Origin: Stictocephala bisonia
Taxonomy: Eukaryota; Arthropoda; Insecta; Hemiptera; Membracidae
Reading direction: 5' to 3'
Length of the DNA: 64,000 nt
NCBI GenBank assembly: GCA_035578905.1
Contig: JAQJVL010002605.1
Coordinates: forward strand, 1-64,000
Position 1 is the stretch's first letter; each line of letters begins with the position of its first letter. Below the pieces are notes generated by a model. It did not search any database. It had not been told where the DNA came from and saw nothing but the letters and a program-made list of their open reading frames with translations. Below are positions 5,544-36,064 of the stretch, piece after piece. A program made the position numbers and the translations under genes.

Positions 5544-5603
5544 GTAACTTGCCCCATCCATCGCAAGTTACGGTGGTAGCCACTCCATAACAAAATTGCT
5601 ACC
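5544..5603 (-). ncRNA. Double-hairpin element, copy A
   Basis: Stem 1 is GTAACTTGC (5544-5552) with GCAAGTTAC (5563-5571), nine Watson-Crick pairs around loop CCCATCCATC. Stem 2 is GGTAGC (5575-5580) with GCTACC (5598-5603). The same architecture recurs with other stem sequences elsewhere in both Mavericks. It is assigned to the minus strand because mismatches in sister copies are G-U there. Function unknown. Confidence 0.6.
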
Positions 5604-6030
5604 GTCCCACTATTATTTTTGTAATTTATTTTTTTATACTTTTTTTGGGTCCCTCTGTAAGTAAAGACATCACTTTAACTCAGAGAAGCCTTTCAATGTG
5701 ACGACAAACTTACAAAGGGGTTTTTGCAGTACCATGATTATGTAATACAAACATCTCACACCCTGGGTTTACGGGTTTTAAGCCTACCATAGAGTGTTCC
5801 ATCAACTAAACTGTACGAGGGGGGCCCATTGCATACTAGATTGCATCTGCGACTCGAGGTCTTACGGGGAAGTAGCCCAGCCCCAAGCTGCAGGAACCGC
5901 CTCAGGTCTTACGCGTTTTATACGGGCTGCCTTAGAGAACAGTCCGGGGCGATTTTTTATTGAATTTGGCCGCCCTCACCTCGACAGTTCATGTCCTGTA
6001 CTTACGGTGTTTAGCCAGCCATAGGACGCA
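5604..6030. other. Conserved non-coding block shared with Mav-2
   Basis: Matches 24660-25064 of Mav-2 over roughly 400 bp, including AGAAGCCTTTCAATGTGACG, CATAGAGTGTT, GCCCATTGCATACTAGAT and TAGAGAACAGTC. Open frames are short and out of register between the two copies, so the conservation is not protein-coding. It lies directly after a double hairpin in both elements. It could be a cis-acting replication, packaging or UTR element. Confidence 0.6.
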
Positions 6031-6262
6031 CATTCACACAGAGATTATCTGTATTACATACACGGTTATAATGTTTAATGTAAAACGCTCCACTTACGTT
6101 TTGATACAGCATTTAGAGACATAATGTCCAAACTAAAGTTTGGACAGTCTTTTATACTCTTGCTGTGCTGCTCTAAAGGTGCACTTGAAGTTACAATTAG
6201 CGTGTATAGGTAATATGCAAGCGTTTGAACAAGTATTTGAACAATCTTTCGGTTATTTCAAA

Positions 6263-6579
6263 TCACGTTATGGATGAAATTCTTTTAAAAAATTGACTTT
6301 TTTCCAACCCTTGACTATAAATTTTAGTAAAAGGTTTACAAAGTGTTCGAATTAGATTTTCATCGTATTCTATACTACCCTCTTCCCACTTTATTCCGTG
6401 CAAGTGTCGTATCAACCATCTAGCTGACCTTTTTTTGTTTTTCATCAAGTGCACACTTGCAGTAAGGTGACTTGAAAACGATTTGTGTTTGAAAATGTTC
6501 GCTTACTATTGCCAATTCTGTTCACTATAAAGACGGTTATTATTGTCAGTAAGGCTTGAAATTCAACTACCGCAGCCAT
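6263..6579 (-). pseudogene. Broken copy of the Mav-2 25231-25692 gene
   Basis: Residues around KWEEGSIEYDENLIRTLCKP, IYSQGLEKSQFF align with ILWEEGCVP, LLKPFDIVYTKGSEKK of the Mav-2 gene. An upstream ATG (6577-6579) opens AAVVEFQA, like AVVEFHGF at the start of the Mav-2 protein. Frameshifts and stops separate the two parts and the C-terminal Cys/His part is missing. Similar proteins with the IY-x-KG-x-EK motif are, to my recollection, common in invertebrate Mavericks; no function is known to me. Confidence 0.65.
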
Positions 6580-6762
6580 TGACTCTATTAATTTCACAAG
6601 TGTAATCTGTTAAAAATGTGCGGAGATGGGACTGTTGAATCCCCCACAGAGATATTGTTTTAGTAAGGTCTTCCTCGTAAAACAACTCTCTCAATTCCAA
6701 CTGTATAGCGGAAGGTTGGATAGAAACTTGCGCCCAAGTCGCCCGAGTTATGTGACAAAGTG

Positions 6763-7162
6763 CTACCCGGGCGTGTTGGGAGTAAACTGAGCTTGCTCGC
6801 TCGGATTAAGTGTTAAAGTACTTCCCAGGAAAACATGCGGTGTCCCAAAGATCGATAAAACTTTAACAACTTCTTTTTCGTTGATTTCCAAATAAATCTT
6901 TTTATTATCTTTGAGGGCTTTGGAAATGTTATTAAAATTTACACAAAACTGATTAAATACATCAAATGACCAGTAAACGTAGTCGTGTCTTCCATTGAAC
7001 ATTACTCCGAGACCGTAGTTTTGGTTTTTAAAAATCCCAACGGTAACTGATTTGGAAAAGTTTTCATTTAGAAAGAAAACACGTTTTAGAAAAATACCGT
7101 TTAACATGTCGGATGGGCTCCAAGAGCTTAGGCAGCGTGAGATACTCACCAGACGGCTCCAT
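6763..7162 (-). pseudogene. Homologue of the Mav-2 209-aa protein, frameshifted
   Basis: The ATG at 7160-7162 opens a short frame (MEPSGEYLTLP) that must shift to continue into VTVGIFKNQNYGLGVMFNG. That segment parallels FVTVGLFNEFLFQVGILFHK of the Mav-2 gene at 26707-27336, and both sit next to the major capsid gene. Function unknown. A GGTGAGTATC splice-donor-like string overlaps the 5' end, so an alternative is a spliced first exon of 13 nt. Confidence 0.5.
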
Positions 7163-7239
7163 AATCTCGACTGAATTTGGAAATCTCAAATTCTAAACCG
7201 TTTCGAGTGACTAATTAACTTCATGCTTTTTACTAAACG

Positions 7240-8380
7240 TTAGTCAGTAAAGGTGTACATCAGGTGCGAATCATGAATTATTAAGACAGTAAGCTGTAGT
7301 CTTGTCGGGTATGTTATTTTTAAATTAAAATTCGATGCGTACATCAACAGGTCCAGGACTTTGATTGAATCATTCTGCTTGGAGCAGTCGATTACAAAGA
7401 TCGGACATTTCGATTTAAAAGTATCCAATTCCATGATGGGTGAATTGGAAACACCGTAGTAGGAAGACTGAAATTTCGCGTACATTTCATAGAATAAACT
7501 CCAATCACCTCGGATATTGTCGTAAGGATAGTACTGTGAGTTGAGGTATAACTTGATATCCATTAAATCACAAGGGTCAAAACCCGACATGTCCTTTTTT
7601 ATGTTATTTTTCCTATCAGTTTTGAAACGCCAGTATCACATAGCGGGGGTTTTTTCTAGTCTGCGATGACGTTTTTTACAGTCCAATATGTCCTCTTTTG
7701 CTTGTGGGAGCGTGGGATACTCGTGACACTCCCACGATCTATAAGGTGAGATGAATTGGGGTGTCCTTATTAACGAGTTTTAAAAGTTTTTTCTTTGTAA
7801 CTATCGGGAAACAGTCAAGTGTGGGACAAACCGCCCAGTACTAAGTCGTTAATTCCACACTGTGTGTTTACCGCATCCTCTATAACAACACGTCCGTGTC
7901 ATTGGCTGAACGCAACAGGTATCAGCTCTTGTTTTACATTTACAATAATTTTTCTGTAATCTTCCATGAAACCAAAGAGCAATTTTAATGGAATGGTAAA
8001 AGTAAACTCGGTTGTTGTTTGTGATGTCCCTGGTCCGAACCAACAAGCATTTTTCAATGCATTTGTTTCATTCTGTCTCAGTGACAGTAAATTCTTAATA
8101 GTTGATACAACAACCAAGTTTTTAGTACGGTCCACTGTTATACCAGAAATTTCGTATCTAATATCTTCAAACAAGTACGCCATAGCGTTGTTAATCAGAG
8201 ATACATCTACGACTACAAAGCCTTTTTGGCTGTAATTTTACCAGAAATATGCAGAGAACTTTCAAACGGAGCAGTAATAATGTCCTGTTGACTGACGGCG
8301 ATACGTATTTCATCATTGTTTTTGAAAGTGGAAGGAGGCGTACGGTTTGTGTGTGTGATACTCACAGCTTGTAATAACAT
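7240..8380 (-). pseudogene. Major capsid protein (double jelly roll), broken
   Basis: Homologous along its length to the Mav-2 capsid gene. N-terminal part: NNDEIRIAVSQQD and SLHISGKIT (8230-8330). Middle: IPLKLLFGFMEDYRKIIVN (about 7960-8000). C-terminal part: LNSQYYPYDNIRGDWSLFYE and FVIDCSKQ (7240-7590). These are Polinton hexon-type signatures. The frame changes at about 8184-8235 and again between 7590 and 7899, so no full-length product is possible. Order after the penton gene is as in Mav-2. In a working element this protein forms the icosahedral shell. Confidence 0.8.
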
Positions 8381-8544
8381 CGCTGTATTTCGACTTTTCC
8401 CTCAATTTCCAACAGTTTGTAATTTTATTTTAAATCCTAAGGATCTTAAAAACTTTGTATTGCTCGATGTTAACACCTCGAGTGTTTTGGGGTCTAATGA
8501 CCTTTTGTGACACAGTTGTTTCCCTAAATACTAATCACATTGCT

Positions 8545-9215
8545 TCGCTTTAGGTGTAAGCGTAATGAATTTGTTTCGTTTCTAAAGTTTTATCAACTGT
8601 CCTTGTTGATCTCTCAGCTCACAAGTAATGTAATTCAAAACTTGCACACTCACAGATAAATAAATCACGTTGTGAGGCGTTTTTCAATTATTTTGTAGCC
8701 AGGTGGAACTGACGGATAAAATTCGTGTATTATATGAACTTTCCTGACCGTTCTGATACGAGCCTCTTGCCACGTTTACATGTGACTCGAACGACATTTA
8801 CTGAGTTAATGTTAACTTCATTCTCAGACATGTGAGTTTTATTGGCTTCGTATACAACTTTATTAAAACCGAGTAAGGTAGCTAGACTGTTTTCTGTTTC
8901 AAAGTGAATGGGCTCGCTACAAGTAATTTCTACTTTCAAAGTACTGTTGTATGGTTTTAAACTGAATTTTACACCAGTTTTAATGTTATTGTTAATGTAA
9001 TTCTCTAAATCGCTAATCTCGTAGGAGCCAGTCGGAATTTTTATTACAGAGTCTCCGTAGTGGAATGTGTCGTTTACATTTTCTTCTACATTCGGTATTG
9101 AGTTGTACGATTGTGGAGATCGATCAAACCAATCTTCCCATTCACCTGTCGATAAATCGATCGAAGGAAATATGTCACAACATAACGTTGAACTCTGTCC
9201 ACTAAGGCAAAACAT
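8545..9215 (-). pseudogene. Penton (minor capsid, single jelly roll), broken
   Basis: MFCLSGQSS starts the frame; YNSIPNVE, FHYGDSVIKIPTGSYEI and LLGFNKVVYE match the intact Mav-2 penton. After about 8735 the frame shifts; the rest (EFYPSVPPGYKIIEK, LNYITCELRDQQGQ) is readable in another frame and contains a stop. A small change near 9130 also replaces the expected WEIGLVDF-like region. The penton would close the capsid vertices. Confidence 0.8.
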
Positions 9216-9604
9216 TATCAACGAAGAACTCTAAACACAAGTGCCCGCAGAAGTACTGAGTCAAAACTCTGTTGTCTTTCGTTATTATACTTTTATATTA
9301 ACACTGGGACCCAATACTTGATCAATTCCATAGGAGGACGCAAGTTACCAAAACTGTCATAGTACAACACATTATTACCACGCTTTTTATAACAAACCCA
9401 ATGTGTACCTTCCCCTTGTATACTGTCAAAATTAATAATTGCGCTTTCGTTCAATCTAGATTTATTCGGAAGTGTGTCCCTCATGTAGACAACTCGAAAG
9501 TTTGGATTATTTAATTTTTTAGCGTAATTAACGAGTTCGTGATTTGTGAGGGCGTGTTCAGGAACGTAGCTTATTTTGAAGTTTTTTTTTTCTAAGAAGA
9601 ACAT
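9215..9604 (-). pseudogene. Adenain-type capsid maturation protease, broken
   Basis: The frame from ATG 9602-9604 contains the His motif GEGTHWVCYKK and the acidic motif YYDSFGNLRPP. It stops at 9293 before the catalytic Cys. FCGHLCLEF, carrying that Cys, is encoded at about 9230-9252 in a shifted frame. The family (C5/adenain-like) cleaves capsid precursors during virion maturation. A run of ten A follows the start codon closely, at the junction with the preceding gene. Confidence 0.8.
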
Positions 9605-9619
9605 TTCTTCTTGTTTTTA

Positions 9620-10110
9620 GGTGCTTTTTTAACACCTCTCCCTGTAGTTTTATTCCAGGGTCATAGATACAAACCCTTACCCTTCTTTTGTTTACGTGTT
9701 TTTCTCTTATGAGAGCCACCCAACTTTGCTTTCGCCTTCATGGCTGTTGTAACTGCCCAAGCTGCGGCTTTCTCGCCTATAGACGAATCTGTAGCCTTAA
9801 ACCTTTGCCAAGCTCGTTCGGGCCAAGTCTTTGTCCGCTTGCGCTCTCCGCGCTGTGTCCTGAATACTGGGAGTAGGCTATGTCGTGAGCCTTGCAGGCT
9901 TCGTCCAAACCGTTTTATTCCCTTGTCATCCTCTGGCTAATCTTCTTCTTTAATTTGGTCCCAGGTCCACAGTACCTGTAGCCTAGCAGGTGAGCTTCCC
10001 AAGGTAGTAGATCTATACCCTTTATTTATGGCTGTTCCAGCTAAACTTCCAATTCCTTCGAGTGCACTAGATACAAGTCCTCTTCCGCAGCGTGAAGTTT
10101 TCTTTTTCAT
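9620..10110 (-). pseudogene. Phospholipase-A2-like basic protein, broken
   Basis: Start MKKKTSRCGRGLV (ATG 10108-10110). The calcium-loop motif YRYCGPGTKLK and the catalytic motif LDEACKAHDIAYSQYS are present but in different frames, with a stop after KKK. The C-terminal part (GEKAAAWAVTTAMKAK) matches the Mav-2 copy. In parvoviruses a similar VP1 PLA2 domain breaches endosomal membranes; here the role is inferred from that family. Confidence 0.7.
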
Positions 10111-10209
10111 CAAAGTAGATGTGTCCTCTTACGAAGGTTAGTTAAAGAATGGAGAAACTTTATCCCTATTCCACATTATATTCCTCCTGATTCCCTCATT
10201 GTATGGATG

Positions 10210-11133
10210 TTAGAGGAAACAGCTTGTGTTACCGAATATTTCTTCCCAGTTTATGTAGTTATCGGCGGTCAATGGTTCTGCCCTCCTCCCTTGTGTGCCC
10301 ACCATGAATATGGGAAAAGAGTAACTGGCCGAATTTTCTAAGTTGATATCAGGTTTAACACTGTTTCGATAAAGTTTTCCCTTCCAGCGCAATAACCGTC
10401 TCTTTAACACCATTCAGACCCTCAGTAAGTGATGTCGAGCAATGTACCTACACCGTTGTTGTATGTTGACCTAACATTTCCAAAATATGCGATTTTGTTT
10501 CCGTTAACACTTTTAAGTTTACGGCCTCGTCCATTTCTTTCGCATCTCTAACAGATTTTAATTCCCATATTATGAAAGTCCAAGTTGTCTTTGTGTTTCT
10601 TTGGACAGTTTGCCAGTAGATATGACTTGGTTTACAGCATCTTGATTATTATGTGGGTCAGCTACAGAAACTAAACGTCGCTTTTCAAAACTCCAATAAC
10701 TACTAGTTTTAACAGGAACGGCAGCATCTACGTAACGTTTGGTTGCTGCATGGTCCGGACCTGTAGGGTCCTTTACCCTTGTTATAAGCCTATCTCCTAC
10801 GTTGACTGTTTTTTTTTGTTGGTACAGTACACATTGTTCACCTATAGTTTTTAAATTCACGGGCATCTCCGAGCTCCTTTGGCGATGCTAAATTTTCTGT
10901 TCTTTTGTTACGCGCAGAATAGCTGTTTTGTAAGTTTGGCATTGTGTTAGCCTCAAAGTATGTTTCTCGTAACAACATCGTTGTCTGCTATGGGTAACAC
11001 CGACGTTAACCATTCGTTTATTATCAATATCATAGTTTCCTTCGGGTGTTAGTTTAAAACCTTCACCCGGTGGTCCTTTGCCAATGACATTACCGTCAGA
11101 GGGCAAGACACGTCCAAACTTGTCTACAGACAT
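10210..11133 (-). pseudogene. Tail-fibre-like repeat protein, broken
   Basis: Pieces of the intact Mav-2 gene 30375-31181: MSVDKFGRVLPS and GFKLTPEGNYDIDNKRMVNV at the start (ATG 11131-11133), then GEQCVLYQQK, VKDPTGPDHAATKRYVDA and VADPHNNQDAVNQV in another frame, then a 3' remnant near 10210-10413. The D-P-x(4)-D-A-x-x-K-x-Y/V-x repeats resemble phage tail-fibre repeats. At least two frameshifts. Confidence 0.7.
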
Positions 11134-11164
11134 AATCTAACTGATGAAATCAGACTGTGTCTGT

Positions 11165-11677
11165 TTATATATACATATAAAAATAACTAAAATACTTTTT
11201 TAAGCATGAATCTAAATTTATAGGAAAAGAGTAGTATCGGTCATGTCTATTTTCGTCCCAATGATGTAAGGAATCTCTATATTTGTTTCTTCCATTTAAA
11301 TAAACTTCCCTATAATGACAATCGTCAAAGTAATTGTCGATCCCCCATTCATCTTCGAATCGCCAATCACACATACATGATGTTTGCGGGACTATAATAC
11401 CAATGATTTTTTCGTTTTGTTTAATAAAAGACGAAATATGGTCAGATTCTACTATTTCGGGGTTCAAACTTATAAATGCATATAGTTCTGTATGGTTTTG
11501 TATGTATTCGTTATACCAAAAGGGGTCCAAAGATAACACTGTATGTAGTTCTGTCCAAAAGGGGTCCAAAGATAACAGTCCATGTAGTTCTGTTTCGTAT
11601 AGTGGTGGTACTTGTCTTTTTAATCTGTAATATATCCCCGCTGTTGTGTTTGTCTTAGATATTGCCAACTGTAAATC
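11165..11677 (-). CDS. Unknown protein, possibly the C-terminal half of the F-box gene
   Basis: An open frame of about 167 residues without a clear ATG. Rich in aromatic residues, no membrane segment. A 36-bp direct duplication (around 11518-11590) creates a repeat LLSLDPFW/VLSLDPFW. It follows the F-box frame directly and differs from it by one nucleotide of register, so the two may once have been one gene split by an indel. No family recognised. Confidence 0.4.
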   Translation of the reverse strand, partial: DLQLAISKTNTTAGIYYRLKRQVPPLYETELHGLLSLDPFWTELHTVLSLDPFWYNEYIQNHTELYAFISLNPEIVESDHISSFIKQNEKIIGIIVPQTSCMCDWRFEDEWGIDNYFDDCHYREVYLNGRNKYRDSLHHWDENRHDRYYSFPINLDSCLKKYFSYFYMYI

Positions 11678-11693
11678 GACTTTCTTTCCGATG

Positions 11694-12065
11694 TCATTTT
11701 CCGATCACTTTGGAAAACGTGAGATAGAATTTTAAAGAATAACTGTGTTTACCCTCCTTTTTTAAAAAAATATGAAACCAACGAGGTTCGTCACTTTCTA
11801 CTTTGAAATGTACTGTTTGGAAGGTCTCGTCAATATGACCGAGGTATAAGGCTTTACCATACAGTGACGTCACATAGTCACATTGTCCAAGAGTACGGTT
11901 GATTGTATAGTTTGCCAAACAAGAAAACTGTTTAAACTTTTTATTACTGTGTGAGTGTAATTTCTCGTAAAGAAACCAAAAATATGAGTCTGTAATGAAA
12001 CTAACTTGTTCAATTGGTAGGTTAAGTAAAATCTGCATTTTAACCTCAATTGGTAAAGTATCCAT
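11694..12065 (-). CDS. F-box-like protein (123 aa)
   Basis: ATG at 12063-12065. The N terminus MDTLPIEVKMQILLNLP is a good match to the start of an F-box (LP-x-E-x-x-x-x-I-L-x-x-L), followed by an aromatic-rich region. F-box proteins recruit targets to SCF ubiquitin ligases; viral F-box proteins often redirect host degradation. No counterpart is seen in Mav-2. With the RING and BIR genes it suggests that Mav-1 carried a ubiquitin/apoptosis module. The match covers only about 30 residues. Confidence 0.5.
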   Translation of the reverse strand: MDTLPIEVKMQILLNLPIEQVSFITDSYFWFLYEKLHSHSNKKFKQFSCLANYTINRTLGQCDYVTSLYGKALYLGHIDETFQTVHFKVESDEPRWFHIFLKKEGKHSYSLKFYLTFSKVIGK

Positions 12066-12081
12066 TTTTACTAGTCGAATC

Positions 12082-13050
12082 TCAACCGACTAATGATTTG
12101 TAACGGCTATTGCCAGCTCCTAATATAATTTTAGCTTCTTTTAAGTCTTCGATTATGTTTTGAATTTCGTTCCTATGGTTAGCATTTCCGGCCTCTGTTG
12201 AAGCTATAATTAGTTTCAATCTATCACATAATTCGTTTGGATTGTCCCAATAGGAAATGTCACGTGATCCAATGTCTTTTAGCCCTCTACCGTACATTTG
12301 TTGGGGAAATAATACGGAAATTATATTTTTATATTTTATGGAATTTGTCGGTCGGTTAATGTGATTATGAGGTAAATAACCTTTTTTATGCGCATTCATT
12401 TTTATCAGTACATCTTTATAAGCGTCCAAGTCATCTTGTGTGTATAAATTTTCGTCGGGTTGTCTTTTAAATAATAATTCGTAAAGACCTTCGGTTCGTT
12501 TGTACTGCACATTGTTCAAATGAATGTTTCCTTCGTTGTCGAATGTAAGCAGTTGATTACCAACCATTAATTTATCACTGTCTATATGTGGCCCGTAAAT
12601 ATTGTCCATTTTATTCCTAACACCAGCCTCGTCTTTCAAAAGTTTTAACACGTATTTTTGTGTAATGGGTGCGTTGAACGTCTCTAAAACGTACTGTGAA
12701 GCCTCGTGAAACTTTGCGGGGCTTTGTATCTATTGACTAACTGAGGGTGGGAGGGAAGATGATTCAAACACTTGTGTGTCTTGAATAAACGACGGTCCTT
12801 TAGGCGTAGACATGTAGTCTGGCTTAAAATTATCCTGCTCGTCCGCACTGAGGTCCATAGGTTCCTCCTTTGGTTTAGTTTCCATCTCTGTTCTCTTTCT
12901 AAGTTCAGTCAAAATTGGTTTGTACTGTTTTTCTAATGTTTGCTCGGTATACATGTTACCCAACTTGAAAGCGCGATACTTGCGGCGAACAGCATCTTGC
13001 AACTGTACAATTCTTCTCGTAAGAGATTGATGTTTACTGTTTCGTTGCAT
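12082..13050 (-). pseudogene. Coiled-coil structural protein, split
   Basis: Homologue of Mav-2 31193-32161. The N-terminal half (12730-13050, IVQLQDAVRRKYRAFK, TLEKQYKPILTELRKR) is a predicted coiled coil that ends in a stop at 12730. The C-terminal half (12082-12651) holds GNIHLNNVQYKRTEGLYELL, SIKYKNIISVLFP and YWDNPNELCDRLKLIIAS, all conserved in Mav-2. I associate the GT-x-GLxELL...KYKNIIS pattern with the DUF8207-type domain of arthropod Maverick proteins, from memory. Role in the virion is inferred from its position among structural genes. Confidence 0.7.
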
Positions 13051-13104
13051 GTTTATAAATGATTAAAAATTTTCAAAGTTTGTTCTTTTGTAAAAGAAAG
13101 GATA

Positions 13105-13281
13105 TCAAAGTCCAGGACGTGGGTAACCACGTCCATTAATGTAAGCTAAAAGCACCGGACGTATAATTCTTTCAACATCATGAATCCTACGTTTAAAACA
13201 GTCTCTATCCTGTTTTAACATTTCCTTGGGAATATAAAACACAGTTACTGTGTCATTAAAATGAACCTTTTTCTTTACCAT
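13105..13281 (-). CDS. Small PPP1R15/GADD34-like protein (58 aa)
   Basis: Its ATG (13279-13281) overlaps the stop of the upstream 83-aa gene as TAATG. The N terminus carries KKVHFNDTVTV, an RVxF-type protein-phosphatase-1 docking motif in the same context as GADD34 and herpesvirus ICP34.5 (KVxFSxxVxV). It is followed by DRDCFKRRI and a downstream Pro-Val-Leu-Leu, the pattern DRxRFxRRI...L-x-P-x-L of the PPP1R15 core. The linker is shorter than usual (16 residues against about 29 in GADD34). Known members bring PP1 to phosphorylated eIF2alpha and restore translation. The homologue in Mav-2 occupies the same place after the ATPase. Confidence 0.6.
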   Translation of the reverse strand: MVKKKVHFNDTVTVFYIPKEMLKQDRDCFKRRIHDVERIIRPVLLAYINGRGYPRPGL

Positions 13282-13532
13282 TAGGGTAGTTCAACTTGTC
13301 TAAAGAATAACGCTCGTTTTTTATTTCTTCTCAAATAACGAATTATCTGTTTTAAGGAAACACCTTTACCATCAAAGTCCAGACCCTTGTAATATCGTCT
13401 CACTCGAGTGTCAAACCACTTAATGACTTCTCTTCTGTTTAAGTCCTTGAATATATAAGTTCGCTTCCAACCGTGTCGCCATTGTGGAACTTCAGCTACA
13501 GTATACTCGTCGTTTTCAATAGTTTTATCCAT
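13281..13532 (-). CDS. Unknown basic 83-aa protein
   Basis: ATG at 13530-13532, stop overlapping the next start. Rich in Arg/Lys and Trp (WRHGWKRTYIF, VRRYYKGLDF, LRRNKKRALFF). No family recognised and no counterpart seen in Mav-2. Tight packing with its neighbours supports a real gene. Confidence 0.5.
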   Translation of the reverse strand: MDKTIENDEYTVAEVPQWRHGWKRTYIFKDLNRREVIKWFDTRVRRYYKGLDFDGKGVSLKQIIRYLRRNKKRALFFRQVELP

Positions 13533-13541
13533 AAATGATTT

Positions 13542-14427
13542 TCATCTCTGTATAGGCTTACTGTCAACACCATGTAGGTCTATAAGATAAGAGTTCAATA
13601 ACCAGAACTCTGTCAGATTAGCACCAGTAAAGTTACGCCACTGTTCGTAGAGTTCATGATTTGTAATTGTATTCAAGCTAATACCGAATTTATTACAATG
13701 TTTAGCGAGCGTAGGTAATGCATGATTTAGAAACTCTACAGTATACAGTCCTTTGGCTAGGTTGTTTGCACCAGCAAATGGTTTTTTCCTTGTACCATCT
13801 GGTAGGCCAGACGGCTGTGTGGCAAAAGAAACATTATAGCTCACATTCAAATAGCAATTGGACTTAATTAACTGCTCGTAAATCCTCGTGGGGGAGCGGA
13901 TGGGAATTGTTCTCATCCGTCACGTGCACACATCTGCTAGCATGTGGGAGTTTGCATGAGTAATCTAACAGCTGCATGTACACATGTGCAAAATTTAAGC
14001 TTCCATGACGGTCAGCCAGTGGTAGAGCGACATAGTTAAATATATCAGGGAACGGTCTAAATCTTGAAATCATATTTTGAGGTTGTCGAACCGTACAGTT
14101 TAACATGTTCTCATGGTAAATAACTAGTTGAAAGTGTACTCCTTGCTCTTCACTTTTTGTTAAAAACCGTATCCACAAGTCACGATTGTACATTCTTTCA
14201 CTCAGGAATATCATTAATAGTACAACCACGGGTGTTTGTAAAATTGTATGTTTGTTTCTCCAACATCTGTTGTTAAATTTACTCAACTTTCTACTACAAT
14301 AATTTCCACAAAACCTTTTTTTATCCGCGTAATACTTTGTGCATAAATTTGAACTTATGCGTGTCTTTACCTTACACTCTGGTTTCTTAAACTGGGCAAC
14401 GTCGTTATAATAGTAGAAGCGCACCAT
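13542..14427 (-). pseudogene. Branching-glycosyltransferase-like protein, frameshifted
   Basis: The frame from ATG 14425-14427 runs through VVVLLMIFLSERMYNRDLW, LVIYHENMLN and RCVHVTDEN, then shifts near 13890 into TIPIRSPTRIYEQLIKSN and FAGANNLAKGLYTVEFLNHA. The C-x-x-V-T-D/S-E-x-x-x-P-I-R-x-x-x-x-I-Y arrangement resembles the core-2/I-branching beta-1,6-GlcNAc transferase and DUF266 group. The Cys-rich N-terminal third (NRCWRNKH, CGNYCSRK) is unassigned. Absent from Mav-2. Family call is by pattern only. Confidence 0.4.
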
Positions 14428-14479
14428 TTTGTAACCTGTCACTAACTGATGTTGTAAATTAAAGTTGACCGTATTTATA

Positions 14480-15163: not shown

Positions 15164-15170
15164 TGTCACG

Positions 15171-15207
15171 GAATGATTGTCAATTGAACGTACGAGTCAT
15201 TTTTATA
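15171..15207 (-). promoter_or_regulatory. Core promoter of Mav-1 ATPase
   Basis: TATAAAAA on the minus strand (T at 15207) and TCATTC with A at 15174, 33 nt apart, 11 nt before the ATG. The box overlaps the integrase stop region. Confidence 0.55.
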
Positions 15208-16132
15208 CAAGTTCATTCCTATTTATCCATGTATTGTGTTTACCATCGTACCCTAACCACTTTACAAGTAATTTGTCTCCTTTTTTCCTTATTACTTTTT
15301 CTACCAAGTATACATCATCTGTTTTGGATTTCTGTAGCTCTTTTTCATAGAAACTTCCTTTAATAACGTCACCGGTATGGTCTTTAAAGAGGTAGGTTGT
15401 AGGAATAGTAGTTTGGACTTTGTACACAGTAAATATCTCGTTAGTCCAGTTGGGTAGGTATCCTTTGTCAAAGACTTTTTTATACTTATTTATCCTCACC
15501 TTGTCGCCTACTTTAAAACGGACCTTTTTATCCACTGTATTGTACCTTTGTCTGTTTTTATTAATGTTTTTTCTGACTATGTTTTCATTTCTTTTGGTCA
15601 CATGACTTGGAGCCATGCCAATAGTTTTGTGTTTTCTTGTGTTGTATTCTTCCAACAAAGAAGGTAGCATCTTGACCCACCGATACTTACCTTGCTCTGT
15701 GAACTTTCGCCACATTAATGCTTTGAGACTGCGGTTGAACCGCTCTACGATGGACGCCTTCTTGTCACTGTAGCTCGAGTAATGGTTTATACCATATTTT
15801 TTCATCAACTTTGTAAATCCTGCGTTGTAAAATTCTTTACCCACATCAGTTTGTAAGTGTTTCATTTTATTCGACTTTAATATGGGTGTAATGGCTTTAA
15901 CGATTTCTGAACCAGTCTTATCTTTTAATGGGACAGCAAAGGCGTATTTGCTAAAACAGTTTATTATTGTTAAGATGTACTTGTACCCTTGGCTTTGTTT
16001 AGAATAGGGTATCATTCCAACCAAGTCCGCTTGGAACAAGTCTTGTATTCCCTTAACTTCTACAGGTCTGGTAGGGAATCTTTTTCTAACTGGAGCATGT
16101 AGCTCTCTTGCTATCTGCTCTCTTACACTCAT
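15203..16132 (-). CDS. Maverick integrase with chromodomain, intact (309 aa)
   Basis: ATG 16130-16132. The retroviral-type DDE core is complete: D in FQADLVGMIPYSK, D in HLQTDVGKEFYN and E in ASIVERFNRSLKALMWRKF, 35 residues after the second D-type motif. A C-terminal SH3-like strand (VGDKVRINKYKKVFDKGYLP) and a chromodomain (VEKVIRKKGDKLLVKWLGYD) follow. The enzyme inserts the element at 6-bp staggered sites; the chromodomain may steer it to marked chromatin. 308-aa homologue in Mav-2. One of the few uninterrupted Mav-1 genes. Confidence 0.95.
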   Translation of the reverse strand: MSVREQIARELHAPVRKRFPTRPVEVKGIQDLFQADLVGMIPYSKQSQGYKYILTIINCFSKYAFAVPLKDKTGSEIVKAITPILKSNKMKHLQTDVGKEFYNAGFTKLMKKYGINHYSSYSDKKASIVERFNRSLKALMWRKFTEQGKYRWVKMLPSLLEEYNTRKHKTIGMAPSHVTKRNENIVRKNINKNRQRYNTVDKKVRFKVGDKVRINKYKKVFDKGYLPNWTNEIFTVYKVQTTIPTTYLFKDHTGDVIKGSFYEKELQKSKTDDVYLVEKVIRKKGDKLLVKWLGYDGKHNTWINRNELV

Positions 16133-16188
16133 AATGGAAGAATGGAAGGGTTTAGGTAAAGTTTAACAATTTATTTGGTTTTTTTGGT

Positions 16189-16259
16189 GTATGGAGCCCC
16201 ATCCTCGCTCCATACGGTGGCAGTCGACCATAAAAATAATATAAATATAGTTCACTGCC
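16189..16259 (-). ncRNA. Double-hairpin element, copy E
   Basis: Stem 1: GTATGGAGC (16189-16197) with GCTCCATAC (16207-16215), loop CCCATCCTC. This is a different stem from copy A with the same loop type. Stem 2: GGCAG (16219-16223) with CTGCC (16255-16259) around a longer AT-rich loop. On the minus strand it precedes AATAAATT and the integrase start, as in Mav-2. Confidence 0.6.
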
Positions 16260-16350
16260 TCCCTGCCAATTCTAAACCCTTTCACACACCCTGGACCTAC
16301 GGATACTATCCAGCCATAGAGTGTCCTTTCACACACTCATTTAATCTAAC

Positions 16351-16490
16351 GAGCACTCACATTCGCTTTTGGATACGGGTTTTTACACCTCAGAGCCACA
16401 TTCGCTTTTAGATACGGGTTTTTACACCCCAGAGCCACATTCGCTTTTGGATACGGGTTTTTACACCCCAGAGCCACATTCGTACAGTCA
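16351..16490. repeat. About 43-bp tandem repeat, three copies
   Basis: Three copies of CATTCGCTTTTGGATACGGG plus TTTTTACACC(C)CAGAGCCA between the BIR gene and the double hairpin. No function evident. Confidence 0.8.
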
Positions 16491-16560
16491 GCTAATCCAT
16501 CTCATTCAGACCGTAAAAGGGTTTAGTTGTTTCCACATACATCTCTACCAGCAAACTGAA

Positions 16561-17013: not shown

Positions 17014-17041
17014 GGAGAGGATGGAGTAGGGCTAAAACGAC

Positions 17042-22877: not shown

Positions 22878-22926
22878 GTAATGAGCCCCATCCATCGCTC
22901 ATTACGTTGGTAGCCACACTGCCACC
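22878..22926 (-). ncRNA. Double-hairpin element, copy D1
   Basis: Stem 1: GTAATGAGC (22878-22886) with GCTCATTAC (22897-22905), loop CCCATCCATC. Stem 2: GGTAGC (22909-22914) with GCCACC (22921-22926); the single A-C clash is a G-U pair on the minus strand. Confidence 0.55.
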
Positions 22927-23138: not shown

Positions 23139-23187
23139 GTAATGAGCCCCATCCATCGCTCATTACGTTGGTAGCCACACTGCCACC
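23139..23187 (-). ncRNA. Double-hairpin element, copy D2
   Basis: Same as D1, 261 bp further on; stem 1 at 23139-23147 and 23158-23166. Confidence 0.55.
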
Positions 23188-23399: not shown

Positions 23400-23448
23400 G
23401 TAATGAGCCCCATCCATCGCTCATTACGTTGGTAGCCACACTGCCACC
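23400..23448 (-). ncRNA. Double-hairpin element, copy D3
   Basis: Same as D1; stem 1 at 23400-23408 and 23419-23427. Confidence 0.55.
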
Positions 23449-24022: not shown

Positions 24023-24027
24023 GATAG

Positions 24028-24314: not shown

Positions 24315-24374
24315 GTAACTTGCCCCAACCATCGCAAGCTACGGTGATAGCCACTCCATAACAAAATTGCTACC
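24315..24374 (-). ncRNA. Double-hairpin element, copy B
   Basis: Stem 1: GTAACTTGC (24315-24323) with GCAAGCTAC (24334-24342). Stem 2: GATAGC (24346-24351) with GCTACC (24369-24374). Each stem has one A-C clash on the plus strand, which is G-U on the minus strand. Confidence 0.6.
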
Positions 24375-24602
24375 TCCCAGTCACAAGATTACTCATATAC
24401 AATGATGTTTTGAGTGCTCTAAACAATATTCTCGACGAAATCAGGTCCCAATTGGGTAAAATGAGAAGCCTGAAATGGTACATTGCTGTCCGTGTAACCA
24501 TTTTCGACCCAAGTCTTCACACCACCCAATGGGTATAGGGTCATTGGCGCGTTTTTTATTATAGTGGGTGTCCCCAGTAGGCATAATCCCACTTTCCGTA
24601 TT

Positions 24603-24662
24603 GTAACTTGCCCCAACCATCGCAAGCTACGGTGATAGCCACTCCATAACAAAATTGCTATC
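24603..24662 (-). ncRNA. Double-hairpin element, copy C
   Basis: Stem 1: GTAACTTGC (24603-24611) with GCAAGCTAC (24622-24630), one minus-strand G-U. Stem 2: GATAGC (24634-24639) with GCTATC (24657-24662), fully paired: a compensatory change relative to GGTAGC/GCTACC of copy A. Confidence 0.6.
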
Positions 24663-29391: not shown

Positions 29392-29781
29392 TCAGACACA
29401 TACTAAAGTTGATTCATCAAAAACTAAACATAAATGACCGCAAATGTTGGAGCCAAAAGTCTGACGTGGAGTGTAGTTGTACAACACTTTACATCCTTGA
29501 AAATACTCTAAAAGGTCAGGTGGTGGTTGTAGGTTTCCAAAACTATCGAAATACGTCACTACGTTGTCCACTTTTTTATAACACACCCAGTGAGTACCCC
29601 TCCCACTGTTTGAATCTAAATTAACAATGGCATTTTCCTTCTTCCAAATATTCTGTGGTAAGGCGTTTCTCATAAAAACACCTCGAAAATGTGGTATTCT
29701 AAATTTACGTGCATATCTGTCCAGGTCAAAATTTGTAAGAGCCCGATCCGGCAAGTGTTTTAACGCAAACTTTTTTTTTTC
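29392..29781 (-). CDS. Adenain-type maturation protease, start unclear
   Basis: All catalytic parts are in one frame: His in GRGTHWVCYKK, acidic in TYFDSFGNLQPP, Gln/Cys region TFGSNICGHLCLVFD. The frame has no ATG before the conserved LTNFDLDRYARKF. It opens at 29781 inside a run of ten A (29771-29780), in which the upstream PLA2-like frame also ends. Mav-1 has the same A10 run but with an ATG just before it. Either an ATG was lost here or expression uses slippage on A10. About 125 residues. Cleaves capsid precursors. Confidence 0.85.
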   Translation of the reverse strand, partial: EKKKFALKHLPDRALTNFDLDRYARKFRIPHFRGVFMRNALPQNIWKKENAIVNLDSNSGRGTHWVCYKKVDNVVTYFDSFGNLQPPPDLLEYFQGCKVLYNYTPRQTFGSNICGHLCLVFDESTLVCV

Positions 29782-30332
29782 TTATGTACGACTTTAGGTG
29801 ATCCATTTCCCTGCTTGTACGGCTTTAAGTAGTATCCCTCCCCCTTTTTGTAAGGCTTTAAATAGTAACCTTTACCTCGCCGCTTTGCGATCTTTTTCTT
29901 TTTACATACGCGTCGTCTCTTCATTGTACCTCCCAGCTTTTTCTTGGCATTCATAGCTGTTGTCACGGACCAAGCTGCGGCTCGTTCTGCTAACGAAGCG
30001 TCTGATGATTTAACCCTATTCCAAGCCTTATCGGCCAGCTGTTGATCCGGCAGTCTACGGTGTTGATTGTCACTATATTTGGAATATATAATGTCGTGCT
30101 CCTTACAGGCCTCGTCCAACTTGTTATTTCCCCGATCACCACGAGCTAACCTCTCCTTTAATTTGGTACCTGGACCACAGTACCTGTAACCTCCTGGCAG
30201 ATGAAGTTCAACTGGTAGTAGAACGATCCCTTTGTTGAGAGCTGAACTGGCAAAACTACCGACTGTCTCTAGTAGTCCGCACCCTTTGACTGTTGAATGA
30301 CGACTGATTTTTTTCTTGTTAACTCTCGGCAT
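29760..30332 (-). CDS. Phospholipase-A2-like, basic virion protein (190 aa)
   Basis: Start chosen at ATG 30330-30332 (MPRVNKKKISRHS). Calcium-loop motif YRYCGPGTKLK and active-site motif LDEACKEHDIIYSKYS (Cys-x-x-His-Asp) are intact, as in parvovirus VP1 PLA2. The C-terminal third is strongly basic (MKRRRVCKKKKIAKRRGK) with two KGYYLKPYKK/Q repeats and could bind DNA. In parvoviruses the enzyme permeabilises endosomes; the same is inferred here. Ends across the A10 run into the protease frame. Confidence 0.82.
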   Translation of the reverse strand: MPRVNKKKISRHSTVKGCGLLETVGSFASSALNKGIVLLPVELHLPGGYRYCGPGTKLKERLARGDRGNNKLDEACKEHDIIYSKYSDNQHRRLPDQQLADKAWNRVKSSDASLAERAAAWSVTTAMNAKKKLGGTMKRRRVCKKKKIAKRRGKGYYLKPYKKGEGYYLKPYKQGNGSPKVVHKKKKSLR

Positions 30333-32320: not shown

Positions 32321-32329
32321 TCAGGTTAT

Positions 32330-32545
32330 TTTTCTGTTTTCATGTTTTCCTGTTTTCCTGTTTTCCTGTTTTCCTGTTTTCCTGTTTTTCTGTTTTTCTG
32401 TTTTTCTGTTTTTCTGTTTTCCTGTTTTCCTGTTTTCCTGTTTTTCTGTTTTTCCGTTTTTCTGTTTTCCTGTTTCCCTGTTTTTCTGTTTTTCTGTTTT
32501 CATGTTTTCATGTTTTCCCGTTTTCCTGTTTTTCTGTCTTCAAGT
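32330..32545. repeat. TTTTCCTG/TTTTTCTG microsatellite
   Basis: About 25 imperfect 8-bp units. Its right edge supplies the last codons (KTEKQENGKT) of the PPP1R15-like gene. Confidence 0.97.
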
Positions 32546-33440: not shown

Positions 33441-33476
33441 AACTGAGTAATTCACACAAGTTCACTTTTATTTATC
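33441..33476 (-). promoter_or_regulatory. Likely promoter of Mav-2 ATPase
   Basis: TAAATAAAAG (first T at 33474) and TCAGTT (A at 33444), 30 nt apart, within the last codons of the integrase. Confidence 0.5.
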
Positions 33477-34378
33477 CACGAATTGTGAGTACCATCAAAG
33501 CCGAGCCACTTAACCAGCACTTTGTTACCCTTTCTCCTCAACACCTTTTCCACCAGGTATACGTCTCCGTGTCTGGTCTTGAGCAGTTCTTTTCCGTAAA
33601 AGCTTCCTTTAAGCATGTTGTTGCGGTAATCCTTTAGGTGATACGTAGTCGGTACAGTTGGACGTACCGCTTCCACAGTAAAAATCTCGTTTGTCCAGTT
33701 GGGTAGGTATCCCTTGTCGAAAACCTTTTTATACTTGCTTATCCTCACTTTGTCACCCACTTTAAACTCGATCTTTTCCTTCTTCTTATATTTTTGTCTA
33801 TTCTTGTTAATGTTTCGTCTGACCAAATCCTCGTTCTTTTTGTTCACCTCAAAAGGTGCCATGCCAATTGTTCTATGTTTCCTCGTGTTGTACTCTTCCA
33901 ACAGGTCGGGTAGGATTTTAATCCATTGGTAGTTGCCCAGTTCTGTGAATTTTCTCCACATTAGAGACTTGAGACTACGATTGAATCTCTCCACTATGGC
34001 TCCCTTCTTCTCGCTGTACACAGAGTAATGATTAATGTTGTGTTTCTTCATTAGCTTGGCGAATCCAGCGTTGTAAAACTCTTTTCCCATGTCGGTTTGC
34101 AGGTGCGTCATCCGATTCTCCTCCAAAACAGGTTGTATGGCCTTGACGATTTCCTGTCCAGACTTGTCCTTGACTGGTATTGCGTAAGCGTATTTGGTAA
34201 AGCAGTTGATTACTGTAAGAATGTACTTGTAACCCTTGTTAAACTTTGAGTATGGTATCATCTCCACCAAGTCAGCCTGATACAGATCGTCTATTCCTTT
34301 GACTTCCACAGGTCTGGTGGGAAATGTTCTTCTAGCTGGAGCGTGCAGCTCTTTGGCGATGATTTCTCTCACGTTCAT
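33452..34378 (-). CDS. Maverick integrase with chromodomain, intact (308 aa)
   Basis: ATG 34376-34378. DDE residues in YQADLVEMIPYSK, HLQTDMGKEFYN and GAIVERFNRSLKSLMWRKF. SH3-like VGDKVRISKYKKVFDKGYLP and chromodomain VEKVLRRKGNKVLVKWLGFD follow. Same length and layout as the Mav-1 enzyme. Responsible for the 6-bp target duplications seen at both elements. Confidence 0.96.
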   Translation of the reverse strand: MNVREIIAKELHAPARRTFPTRPVEVKGIDDLYQADLVEMIPYSKFNKGYKYILTVINCFTKYAYAIPVKDKSGQEIVKAIQPVLEENRMTHLQTDMGKEFYNAGFAKLMKKHNINHYSVYSEKKGAIVERFNRSLKSLMWRKFTELGNYQWIKILPDLLEEYNTRKHRTIGMAPFEVNKKNEDLVRRNINKNRQKYKKKEKIEFKVGDKVRISKYKKVFDKGYLPNWTNEIFTVEAVRPTVPTTYHLKDYRNNMLKGSFYGKELLKTRHGDVYLVEKVLRRKGNKVLVKWLGFDGTHNSWINKSELV

Positions 34379-34406
34379 AATTTGTATTAGATTGTGTCCA
34401 ATTCAT

Positions 34407-34442
34407 AACTGATTGAAATTGTTGTAAACCAAAGTATTTATT
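34407..34442 (-). promoter_or_regulatory. Likely integrase promoter, AATAAAT type
   Basis: AATAAATA (T at 34440) and TCAGTTATG (A at 34410), 30 nt apart. The same core is duplicated at 35267-35302. AATAAA could alternatively be the poly(A) signal of the 139-aa gene. Confidence 0.5.
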
Positions 34443-34455
34443 GGTTTTTAAGGGA

Positions 34456-34560
34456 TTCCACAGCCCCTCCCCGCTGCGGAAAGTGGATGCGTCTCTGACG
34501 CTAAAGCCGACCTTCTTCTTCTATTTGCTACCTCCTGCACTCCTGTGCTCCCATCCGTCT
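34456..34560 (-). ncRNA. Double-hairpin element, copy F
   Basis: Stem 1: TTCCACAGC (34456-34464) with GCTGCGGAA (34473-34481), loop CCCTCCCC; the single A-C clash is G-U on the minus strand. Stem 2 is displaced by an insert (GATGCGTCTCTGACGCTAAA). On the minus strand it precedes AATAAATA by about 14 nt. Confidence 0.5.
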
Positions 34561-34603
34561 TCTTACTCCACCATTACCTCACTCCTTGTTAATTTTAAGA
34601 TTT

Positions 34604-35023
34604 TTATTCCTCCATATCCCCCTCCCCCTCACTCGATTCAGAATCTGATGTTTCTTCCACAATAGGCGAATCTATATCAAAGTGATTAATTCTTTCCAGC
34701 GCTTTATTAGCATACAGGTCGCTATATAGCTTCAATGTGTTGATGTTAGTCAAATCCAGAGAGTGTTTAAAACAAACACACGACTGAGAAACCTTTATAC
34801 TATATTCATCCTCATTTATGCTCTGTTTGACATTCGGTAAAAAGCCATAAGCTAGAATATCCACTCTATCGTATTCGGATACATCAATCGTTCTGGAGTA
34901 CCTGTACACTGAAACAGTATCGACATTTTCCCCGTTCTTGTAGAACCTTAGGAGATTCGCATCATCACTACTGAACCCCTCAGTAGGATCGGGATTATTT
35001 AACACGATAAACACTTGACTCAT
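34604..35023 (-). CDS. Unknown acidic-tailed protein (139 aa)
   Basis: ATG 35021-35023 (MSQVFIVLNNPDP). No family recognised. Predicted beta-rich body with Tyr/Arg (VYRYSRTIDVSEYDRVD), then a strongly acidic tail (SDSESSEGEGDMEE) as in many DNA-mimic or nucleic-acid-associated viral proteins. The ATG overlaps the stop of the truncated integrase frame as ATGA, so translation may be coupled. No counterpart in Mav-1. Confidence 0.6.
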   Translation of the reverse strand: MSQVFIVLNNPDPTEGFSSDDANLLRFYKNGENVDTVSVYRYSRTIDVSEYDRVDILAYGFLPNVKQSINEDEYSIKVSQSCVCFKHSLDLTNINTLKLYSDLYANKALERINHFDIDSPIVEETSDSESSEGEGDMEE

Positions 35024-35238
35024 CTTGTGATGTTTACTCCTTCGTGTCTCAACTGGAAATGAGTACAGGTTGCTGAGATCGTGTATGTATAATCGAGTAT
35101 TACATCATCCTCTAGCAACGCAGGTGAACCTGAGTTAACCTTACGTGGGTTAATAAAACCCGGGTTTACAGGTCTGGTGGGAAATGTTCTTCTGGCTGGA
35201 GCGTGTAGCTCTTTGGTGATAATTTCTCTCACGTTCAT
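35020..35238 (-). pseudogene. Duplicated integrase N-terminus fused to new sequence
   Basis: The first 23 codons (MNVREIITKELHAPARRTFP...) and 140 bp of upstream sequence duplicate the integrase promoter and start at 34310-34450, with few changes. After FPTRPV the frame runs into unrelated sequence and ends at the ATG of the 139-aa gene. The result is a second integrase-type promoter in front of that gene with a 72-codon leader frame. Confidence 0.75.
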
Positions 35239-35315
35239 AATTTGTATTGGATTGTGTCCAATTCATAACTGATTGAAATTGTTGTAAACCAAAATATTTA
35301 TTGGTTTTTAAGGGA

Positions 35316-35372
35316 TTCCACAGCCCATCCCCGCTGCGGAAAGTGGTAGCCGACCTTCTTCTATTTGCTACC
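35316..35372 (-). ncRNA. Double-hairpin element, copy G
   Basis: Stem 1: TTCCACAGC (35316-35324) with GCTGCGGAA (35333-35341), one minus-strand G-U, loop CCCATCCC. Stem 2: GGTAGC (35345-35350) with GCTACC (35367-35372), perfect. Confidence 0.6.
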
Positions 35373-35403
35373 TCCTGCACTCCTGTGCTCCCTCAAGTGT
35401 GTT

Positions 35404-35844
35404 TTATTTTTTATAAAAAGTGAAGGAAACTAGAGAATGAAATTTTTTCCGCAGTCTCTTTTCTTGCACCATGTGTTTTTCCATTTCTAAATCTGCAAGT
35501 TTTCTTTTGCGACAGTTCCTGTTGTAATGAATGCCACGTACAAAGTTCTTTAGGTCCATCCAATCCACAGTGTCGAGGTACGCCTGGAGATAATCCTGTT
35601 CCGAACTTATCGACTTCCAATGCTCCTCAATTATTGGATTTACTTCACTCATAAACTTCATGTCCTCTTCGTGCCATTTCCATTCGTATTCGTCACGTGG
35701 TTGAGCATACCATCTATTTCCAATGCCATGTTCTCGCCACATAAAGTCCTTGTAGAGTTCCCACCCGTCTTGCTTGACGACTGGGTTGTAGTCACCGTCC
35801 AGGATGGGTGCTTGTTCAGAAGTAGCGTCGGATTCTCCGTACAT
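35404..35844 (-). CDS. Unknown protein with basic C-terminus (146 aa)
   Basis: ATG 35842-35844 (MYGESDATSEQAP). Trp-rich middle (FMWREHGIGNRWYAQPRDEY), helical acidic part (EDMKFMSEVNPIIEEHW) and a basic tail (RKRKLADLEMEK, KRLRKKF) that could be a nuclear-localisation or DNA-binding region. No family recognised. Its promoter is nearly identical to that of the polymerase, so it is probably expressed at the same time. Confidence 0.6.
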   Translation of the reverse strand: MYGESDATSEQAPILDGDYNPVVKQDGWELYKDFMWREHGIGNRWYAQPRDEYEWKWHEEDMKFMSEVNPIIEEHWKSISSEQDYLQAYLDTVDWMDLKNFVRGIHYNRNCRKRKLADLEMEKHMVQEKRLRKKFHSLVSFTFYKK

Positions 35845-35862
35845 GTTGATAGCCTCTGGGAC

Positions 35863-35897
35863 ACTGACGATCGCTGTGAGTGAGGTGTATTTATACC
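35863..35897 (-). promoter_or_regulatory. Promoter of the 146-aa gene
   Basis: GGTATAAATACACCTCACTC (T at 35895) with TCAGT (A at 35865), 30 nt apart. The stretch from the box to CTCACA is shared with the polymerase promoter at 41202. Confidence 0.78.
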
Positions 35898-36007
35898 TGG
35901 TATTCAACCTGGAAGGTTGATTGGGCGTTGCCGGTTTTTGAAGGTCGATTGGGCGTTGTCGGTTCTGGAAGGTCTATTGGGCGTTGCGGGTCATTGCTTT
36001 TACGGGA

Positions 36008-36064
36008 TTCCGCAGCCCCTCCCCGCTGCGGAAAGTGGTAGCCGACCTTCTTCTATTTGCTACC
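36008..36064 (-). ncRNA. Double-hairpin element, copy H
   Basis: Stem 1: TTCCGCAGC (36008-36016) with GCTGCGGAA (36025-36033), nine Watson-Crick pairs, loop CCCTCCCC. Stem 2: GGTAGC (36037-36042) with GCTACC (36059-36064), perfect. Located between the end of the polymerase gene and the 146-aa gene. Confidence 0.62.

Follow-up and report, generated by a model that had tools for sequence, protein, structure and literature searches.

A covarying double-hairpin module at gene borders of Maverick elements in Stictocephala bisonia, most likely marking or protecting messenger RNA ends

The messenger RNAs (mRNAs) of Mimivirus and Marseilleviridae are described as ending in hairpins tied to stop codons, the so-called hairpin rule (PMC4402537, PMC5413956). 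The Mimivirus hairpins are described as not conserved in sequence and as cleaved inside by a viral RNase III, followed by polyadenylation with a viral enzyme (PMC4402537, PMC5413956). For the virophage Sputnik, a review (PMC6723459) describes hairpin polyadenylation signals at 16 genes as Mimivirus-specific. The present analysis concerns a double hairpin in two Maverick (Polinton) elements, Maverick A (1841-21360) and Maverick B (22230-42669), which lie in the first 64,000 nt of contig JAQJVL010002605.1 of Stictocephala bisonia; this whole 64-kb stretch is referred to as the window. These virus-like Mavericks, the two in the window together with dozens of relatives in the same genome, keep an intergenic two-hairpin RNA shape while its letters are swapped. 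Judged from the sequence, the module most likely marks or protects the ends of Maverick mRNAs. To our knowledge, the division of Maverick gene clusters into transcripts has been little studied. A covarying border module predicts transcript ends (or the integrase start) and which factor to seek, and it offers a view on how accessory genes, along with a prefabricated border piece, come to be inserted between PolB and integrase.

Like the hairpins of Mimivirus and Marseilleviridae, the Maverick hairpins lie between open reading frames (ORFs), are tied to an upstream stop codon and have stem letters that are free to vary. Unlike in Mimivirus, there are two stems, the loop, the closing GC pairs, the spacer and much of stem 2 are conserved, and AATAAA often follows. 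Comparable, too, is Sputnik, a small virus in which many genes end in hairpins; unlike Sputnik with its Mimivirus partner, the Mavericks are integrated in a large eukaryotic genome, no giant virus is known to be involved, and AATAAA is often present. The module also resembles the histone mRNA 3' stem-loop and s2m, which are short conserved stem-loops of the 3' untranslated region (3'-UTR) reused behind several genes or viruses, and it differs from both in its two tandem stems, its G-rich loop and the AATAAA that follows in several lineages. Rfam includes families for the histone 3' stem-loop and s2m, and it gave no match at the gathering cut-off across the 64-kb window; a search at E<=5 over 22600-24900 returned one weak match only, at 24768-24870 (E 3.7), outside the hairpins. 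An earlier note on this DNA, written from the letters alone, had listed a ribozyme among its guesses, and nothing was found for it. No description of a conserved RNA structure in Maverick or Polinton transcripts was met in Rfam or in the portion of the literature searched, and a term search of a vertebrate Maverick phylogenomics paper (PMC8097293) gave no occurrence of hairpin, stem-loop, secondary structure, polyadenylation, untranslated or noncoding.

The majority of long ORFs in both Mavericks are on the minus strand. Read on that strand, the module opens with the 6-bp stem 2; three spacer nucleotides follow, then the 9-bp stem 1, which closes a loop of 8-10 nt (11 nt in one relative). The earlier note had reported ten copies; the hairpin it described is present at all ten positions, and an eleventh was added by a covariance model:

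5544..5603, minus: copy 1, Maverick A; GGTAGC..GCTACC, spacer ACC, stem 1 GTAACTTGC/GCAAGTTAC around the loop GATGGATGGG; AATAAA directly after, at 5538-5543
16189..16259, minus: copy 2, Maverick A; GGCAGT..ACTGCC, spacer ACC, stem 1 GTATGGAGC/GCTCCATAC around the loop GAGGATGGG; AATAAA at 16170-16175
22878..22926, minus: copy 3, Maverick B; first unit of a 261-bp tandem repeat
23139..23187, minus: copy 4, Maverick B; second unit of the 261-bp repeat
23400..23448, minus: copy 5, Maverick B; third unit of the 261-bp repeat, 13 nt past the stop codon at 23462-23464
24315..24374, minus: copy 6, Maverick B; GGTAGC..GCTATC with a G-U pair, stem 1 GTAGCTTGC/GCAAGTTAC with a G-U pair; AATAAA at 24267-24272
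24603..24662, minus: copy 7, Maverick B; GATAGC..GCTATC; AATAAA at 24555-24560
34456..34532, minus: copy 8, Maverick B; ahead of the integrase, stem 1 unbroken and including one G-U pair, stem 2 broken; AATAAA at 34437-34442
35316..35372, minus: copy 9, Maverick B; 31 nt past the stop of ORF 35404-35844; AATAAA at 35297-35302
36008..36064, minus: copy 10, Maverick B; 30 nt past the PolB stop at 36095-36097, stems perfect; no AATAAA within 120 nt
5358..5423, plus: copy 11, new and decayed; GATGGC..GCCATC, spacer ACT, stem 1 TTCTGCAGC..GCTGCAAAT

All 11 copies lie within Maverick A or B, and none in the 24 kb outside. The loop is C-rich on the plus strand and G-rich on the minus strand in each of the ten reported copies. 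The exact stem-1 partners claimed earlier hold in so far as each copy has a 9-bp stem, with one mismatch each in 24315, 24603, 34456 and 35316. The switch of stem 2 from GGTAGC/GCTACC to GATAGC/GCTATC was seen as described, and two further types are present, GGCAGT/ACTGCC in 16189 and GGTGGC/GCTACC in 22878, 23139 and 23400; in 34456, stem 2 is disrupted by a 17-nt insertion. It should be mentioned that the copies are not independent. Those at 22878, 23139 and 23400 belong to one tandem repeat, 24315 and 24603 to a duplication, and 34456, 35316 and 36008 to one shared cassette, while the region of 5544 shares ~450 bp of homology with that of 24603. Additions to the fold were also considered. 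A closing stem around the hairpins is not supported: GGGA/UCCC folds in 35316, but the bases before GGGA vary in clade B (defined below) without partners, and in the clade-A candidate TTGG/CCAA only one side changes. A pseudoknot between GGGA of the loop and the UCCC next to it was discarded for geometric reasons.

A first covariance model, R1, was built from 5 copies and matched, outside its training set, 36008 (E 1.5e-5), 35316 (6.7e-5), 34456 (0.3) and the plus-strand copy at 5358-5423 (1.2e-5). A second model, R2, trained on 31 matches with window copies included, scored the eleven window members at 43.6-76.6 bits; the next-best match in the window reached 13.0 bits. A sequence-blind scan of the 64 kb for stem 2, 2-4 nt and stem 1 returned, as raw counts without a shuffle control, 10 matches on the minus strand, 9 of which are members, and 3 on the plus strand, with no plus-sense member among them.

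Relatives were collected from the same assembly (1.68 Gb, 11105 contigs) by their integrases and sorted into clades A-D, named by integrase identity and flanking sequence and not from an integrase tree. Each integrase query gave 5583-6428 first-look candidates, of which 128-129 were scored each time, with many nearly identical copies among them; the assembly apparently carries a large and partly recent Maverick load. Three window genes serve as landmarks:

15203..16132, minus: integrase of Maverick A; PF00665, with PF00385 just under the cut-off; downstream of copy 16189
33452..34378, minus: integrase of Maverick B; PF00665; downstream of copy 34456
36095..37810, minus: 3' part of PolB in Maverick B; the gene is interrupted by frame breaks, and copy 36008 lies behind its stop

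The sample comprised 40 of the 127 other clade-A integrases listed and 19 matches outside clades A and B. In clade A, whose sampled integrases are 83-95% identical to that of Maverick A, the module stands upstream of the integrase in 40 of 40 elements, always on the integrase strand; these are the orthologues of copy 16189, which sits between a gene with a BIR domain and the integrase. All 30 clade-B integrase loci, one of them the window's own, carry the module (59 matches in total), directly upstream of the integrase in 29; the thirtieth is the damaged window copy 34456, which fell under the threshold in the clade-B survey and was recovered by R2. The integrase strand carries 58 of the 59 clade-B matches, and the lone exception (L016:60-119) probably lies in rearranged DNA. 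A more distant integrase led to clades C and D; clade D has the module in 3 of 3 elements, two of them nearly identical. For a further 40 clade-B integrases, a stretch at a guessed place 8-12 kb downstream was searched; a module of the T24 (24603-type) and/or T22 (22878-type) form was found in 30 of these stretches, one of which (L047) has a cut-off partial match (E 0.077), and the other 10 may be misplaced, cut or may have lost the module. The search of other Mavericks with a model, proposed in the earlier note, found the module in clades A, B and D. Outside this genome, six distant Maverick-like contigs from prokaryote assemblies (L001-L006, best-segment identity 36-49%) gave no R1 match better than E 1.7, and searches of viral contigs gave nothing. 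Modules are tandemly repeated in several elements, and many clade-B copies are identical across the hairpin.

Across these clades the pre-integrase site keeps the hairpin with different letters. Stem 1 reads GTATGGAGC/GCTCCATAC or GTATAGAGC/GCTCTATAC in clade A, TTCCGCAGC with GCTGCGGAA or GCTGUGGAA (together written GCTGYGGAA) in clade B, and TTCTACAGC/GCTGTAGAA in clade D. Stem 2 occurs there as GGCAGT/ACTGCC, GGTAGC/GCTACC or GGTGGT/ACCACC, and as GACAGT/ACTGTC in a single clade-A copy.

Pairing was evaluated in an alignment, A9, of 90 copies (55 distinct) cut at E 1e-6, drawn from 61 sources, namely the window and 60 of 135 loci. It leaves out 53 clade-B loci (many near identical), six distant contigs and 16 clade-C loci, and it was fitted to the model structure and is biased towards that structure. 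Standard pairs make up 98.2% of 822 cells vs 77.1% after shuffling, and 171 cells are changed on both sides vs 52 in shuffles. The number of pairs with both-side change (10 vs 8.3 shuffled, reached by 57 of 500 shuffles) and that of further pair types (23 vs 23.6) show no excess. Under a tree-based null in which every branch retains its substitutions in number and kind, pairing averaged 63.7% with a maximum of 81.5%, so that 0 of 1000 sets reach the observed value; double changes on the same branch amount to 14.8 vs a null mean of 0.9 and a maximum of 5. The unpaired parts are conserved: the loop is G-rich throughout, and the spacer is ACC, ACT or AAC in 87 of 90 copies. Of the two stem-1 pairs next to the loop, one is G-C in 53 and the other C-G in 54 of the 55 distinct rows. 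Compensatory changes maintain the fold. The suggestion of the earlier note that selection favours a gene-strand RNA fold is supported by pairing far above both nulls and by a sense that follows the integrase.

The earlier argument from wobble pairs fared less well. In the minus-strand copies of the window, every stem-1 mismatch is indeed G-U on the gene strand, as are those in stem 2 of 24315 and of the 261-bp units (22878 group); the exceptions to the claim that all mismatches are of this kind are stem 2 of 34456, with U-U and A-A, and the plus-strand copy 5358, with C-A and U-U. Counted as cells in the 90 copies, 60 are G-U and 8 are A-C. Widespread G-U states occur in T24 at pairs 2 and 10 (14 and 16 of 17 copies), in T22 at pairs 4 and 12 (11 and 5 of 15) and in the T36 type at pair 11 (10 of 15), and each A-C state is confined to one or two copies among those listed. 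Counted as events on the tree, the inequality vanishes, with 8 branches creating G-U and 7 creating A-C. The asymmetry is therefore one of which variants spread and not of how often they arise, and strand-specific wobble as proof of RNA selection is ruled out in the form in which it was stated. The failure of A-C states to spread fits selection on a gene-strand RNA in active lineages together with decay in dead copies.

The same data bear on whether the structure works as DNA, forming a cruciform or a single-strand hairpin for replication, recombination or packaging. The paired stems could form in DNA too, the presumed mode of Maverick replication, a protein-primed polymerase that displaces a strand, would expose single strands, and the tandem repetition of modules in several elements would suit such a role. 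If a linear element that replicates from its two ends used the structure as DNA, however, no orientation bias would be expected, whereas the module follows the integrase strand in 40 of 40 clade-A and 58 of 59 clade-B cases; the common G-U states would be A-C on the other strand, and the placement relative to stop codons and AATAAA would be left unexplained. We regard a DNA element as improbable.

That placement is as follows. The module stands at gene borders: it is found after PolB and after accessory genes, ahead of the integrase, and close to where the capsid cluster ends. Different genes are followed by the same cassette. In Maverick B it begins 10-13 nt behind three gene stops: stem 2 of 23400 lies 13 nt past the stop of a gene ending at 23462 that, judged by eye, seems to contain an intron, and modules of the T36 type start (GGGAGCAC) 10 and 11 nt past the stops of PolB and of a 146-aa ORF, respectively. 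Behind PolB, four other copies that were inspected have spacings of 30, 30, 30 and 26 nt. Two of the 261-bp units (22841-23465) have a 29-codon ORF, or first exon with a good-looking splice donor, a stop and the hairpin 13 nt on; they also hold a TATA-like stretch, and head-to-tail mini-genes are possible. As to canonical host poly(A) features, AATAAA occurs within 30 nt downstream in 54 of 90 copies, with a background of ~0.0015 per nt on the gene strand. Its distance is 13-16 nt in all 41 clade-A-type copies, 14 nt in 8 of the 15 T36 copies, 3 nt in the three clade-D copies and 41-44 nt in 16 of the 17 T24 copies; in 5544, the remaining T24 copy, it is 1 nt. The signal that the earlier note saw after five copies is present, the number being six of ten within 50 nt. 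A GU-rich stretch like GGGTGGTGTGG follows 5544, 24315 and 24603.

Stop spacing and AATAAA suggest that the double hairpin is a structured RNA element of Maverick transcripts, a 3'-UTR or transcript-end cassette shared among genes, to which we give about an even chance. Among the guesses of the earlier note, a role at the 3' end or in the UTR is the best supported. Transcription from the gene strand would place behind the stop codon a fold made of stem 2, a 3-nt spacer starting with A, stem 1 and the G-rich loop, in many cases with an AAUAAA poly(A) signal shortly downstream. A viral or host protein might then read the G-rich loop on its 9-bp stem, and it could promote cleavage and polyadenylation at the module, or protect or export the mRNA.

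A number of observations weigh against this reading. Copy 16189 lies ~300 nt behind the stop of the BIR gene, and 5544, 24315 and 24603 have no clear gene stop nearby. Within 60 nt, AATAAA is lacking in all 15 T22-type and in 5 of 15 T36-type copies, 36008 and the three copies of the 261-bp units have none within 120 nt, and most of the 54 cases represent a single inherited state of clade A. The GU-rich stretch is also found at 2838 and 2884 without a hairpin. In the alignment, clade A alone shows both-side change in just 2 pairs, and a home-made, R-scape-like G-test over 1711 column pairs gave no single pair at E<0.05, the point on which the covariation check proposed earlier did not come out; restricted to the 15 pairs of the given structure, the test gave four pairs below 0.05, and its power is low because there are few deep lineages. 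Clade C is without the module in 16 of 16 loci (best E 1.5). Five relatives (L018, L019, L020, L034, L036) have a further module 0.85-1.4 kb behind the integrase, followed in L018 and L020, and not in L036, by an integrase-like 5' end. In the window, the tightly packed genes running from integrase to capsid have no module among them; as a general rule for the integrase-ATPase-capsid cluster this was discarded, since those five relatives have one behind the integrase. Finally, in 44 aligned clade-B segments around the integrase start, conservation continues from the hairpin to the integrase start while the upstream side varies; this and the further modules behind the integrase would suit a 5' element of that gene.

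A further explanation is a repeat family of no present function, spread by duplication and gene conversion, in which the arms look conserved as the copies are young: many clade-B copies are identical in the hairpin, the deep stem lineages are few, and no single pair is significant over all column pairs. Yet the stems differ widely across lineages and still pair, beyond anything in the tree-based sets, and before the integrase a hairpin persists in clades A, B and D with its letters exchanged. We consider this explanation highly improbable.

The conservation around clade-B integrases makes a role in the 5' region the main rival, because it runs through AATAAA as far as the start codon while the flank upstream is exchanged. 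The module would then be a structured leader, or a promoter element in DNA, of the integrase and other downstream genes, acting in initiation or translation. Its position right before the integrase in three clades (A, B and D), despite differing upstream sequences, points the same way, as does the duplication of the hairpin with the integrase 5' end in 34386-35340, ahead of another ORF (at 35020-35340); copy 35316 is followed by this duplicated 5' end, and in L018 and L020 such a unit lies behind the integrase. A number of clade-B copies share the duplicated build with differing upstream sequence. The copies behind PolB, the 146-aa ORF and in the 261-bp units, on the other hand, are fixed to stop codons, 36008 has no following integrase 5' end, and in the window only 57 and 78 nt separate the hairpin from the integrase ATG, with AATAAA in between. 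A 5'-region element is possible, though on the unlikely side, and it is a serious rival to the 3'-end role. Both roles can hold for a compact piece at the gene border, where one transcript would end and the next begin.

An argument for the 3'-end role from the plus-strand copy 5358, behind the plus-strand ORF 4758-5093, was withdrawn because no homologue and no Pfam match were found for that ORF and the surrounding 5283-5434 resembles the region upstream of a clade-D integrase (87% identity).

Returning to the transcript-end reading and its closest parallels, the tie to a stop codon demanded by the giant-virus hairpin rule is seen for 23400, 35316, 36008 and their relatives, and is not clear for 5544, 16189, 24315 and 24603; a palindrome without sequence conservation is not what the Maverick module presents. 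It is not classed here as a member of the hairpin rule because of its conserved loop and partly conserved stem, its two stems and the frequent AATAAA. No Pfam match to an RNase III or a poly(A) polymerase was found in the ORFs scanned, a set short of some small ORFs in elements that are broken and some of whose genes may be spliced. By analogy, Mavericks might own a structural mRNA 3'-end signal, a G-rich-loop two-hairpin module used by an element or host factor and akin to those of Mimivirus, Marseilleviridae and Sputnik, a proposal we hold to be doubtful. If true, it would point to an ancient connection among these DNA viruses in forming 3' ends by structure, or to repeated invention.

The assignment of both elements to Mavericks follows from PolB, a retroviral-like integrase, an A32-like ATPase, a double-jelly-roll capsid and long terminal inverted repeats (~600 bp at 96% identity in A, ~540 bp at 94% in B). 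The integrase is clear in both by Pfam. PolB, ATPase and capsid were recognised by Pfam in one or both elements, partly just under the cut-offs (the ATPase match of Maverick A and the PolB match of Maverick B), and by similarity between the ORFs of A and B, on which the capsid of A and the PolB of B mainly depend. PolB is split across several frames in both Mavericks; the 3' part at 36095..37810, for which no Pfam match of its own was found, is 46% identical to a Maverick A ORF matching DNA_pol_B_2.

Several accessory features were also noted. Maverick A has the BIR-domain (inhibitor of apoptosis) gene beside PolB, at 16561-17013 on the minus strand, and a RING-finger ORF near its left end, at 3098-3367 on the minus strand; a BIR-like coding end, judged by eye, stands just before the integrase in clade-C elements. 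Maverick B holds an ORF with a phospholipase A2-like domain (PF08398) at 29760-30332 on the minus strand, and such domains occur in capsid proteins of small DNA viruses. An array of the 8-bp TTTTCCTG lies in Maverick B at 32329-32541, and a similar array precedes the hairpin module in L018, L020 and L036. A 39-bp minisatellite is found at both ends of both Mavericks (1652-1840, 21361-22229, 42670-44088, 45305-46911, 51850-53866) and flanks a reverse-transcriptase gene at 47619-50051 on either side; both Mavericks appear to have inserted into it. Outside the Mavericks, a 109-bp satellite occupies 59548-61736 in 20 copies with 94% matches.

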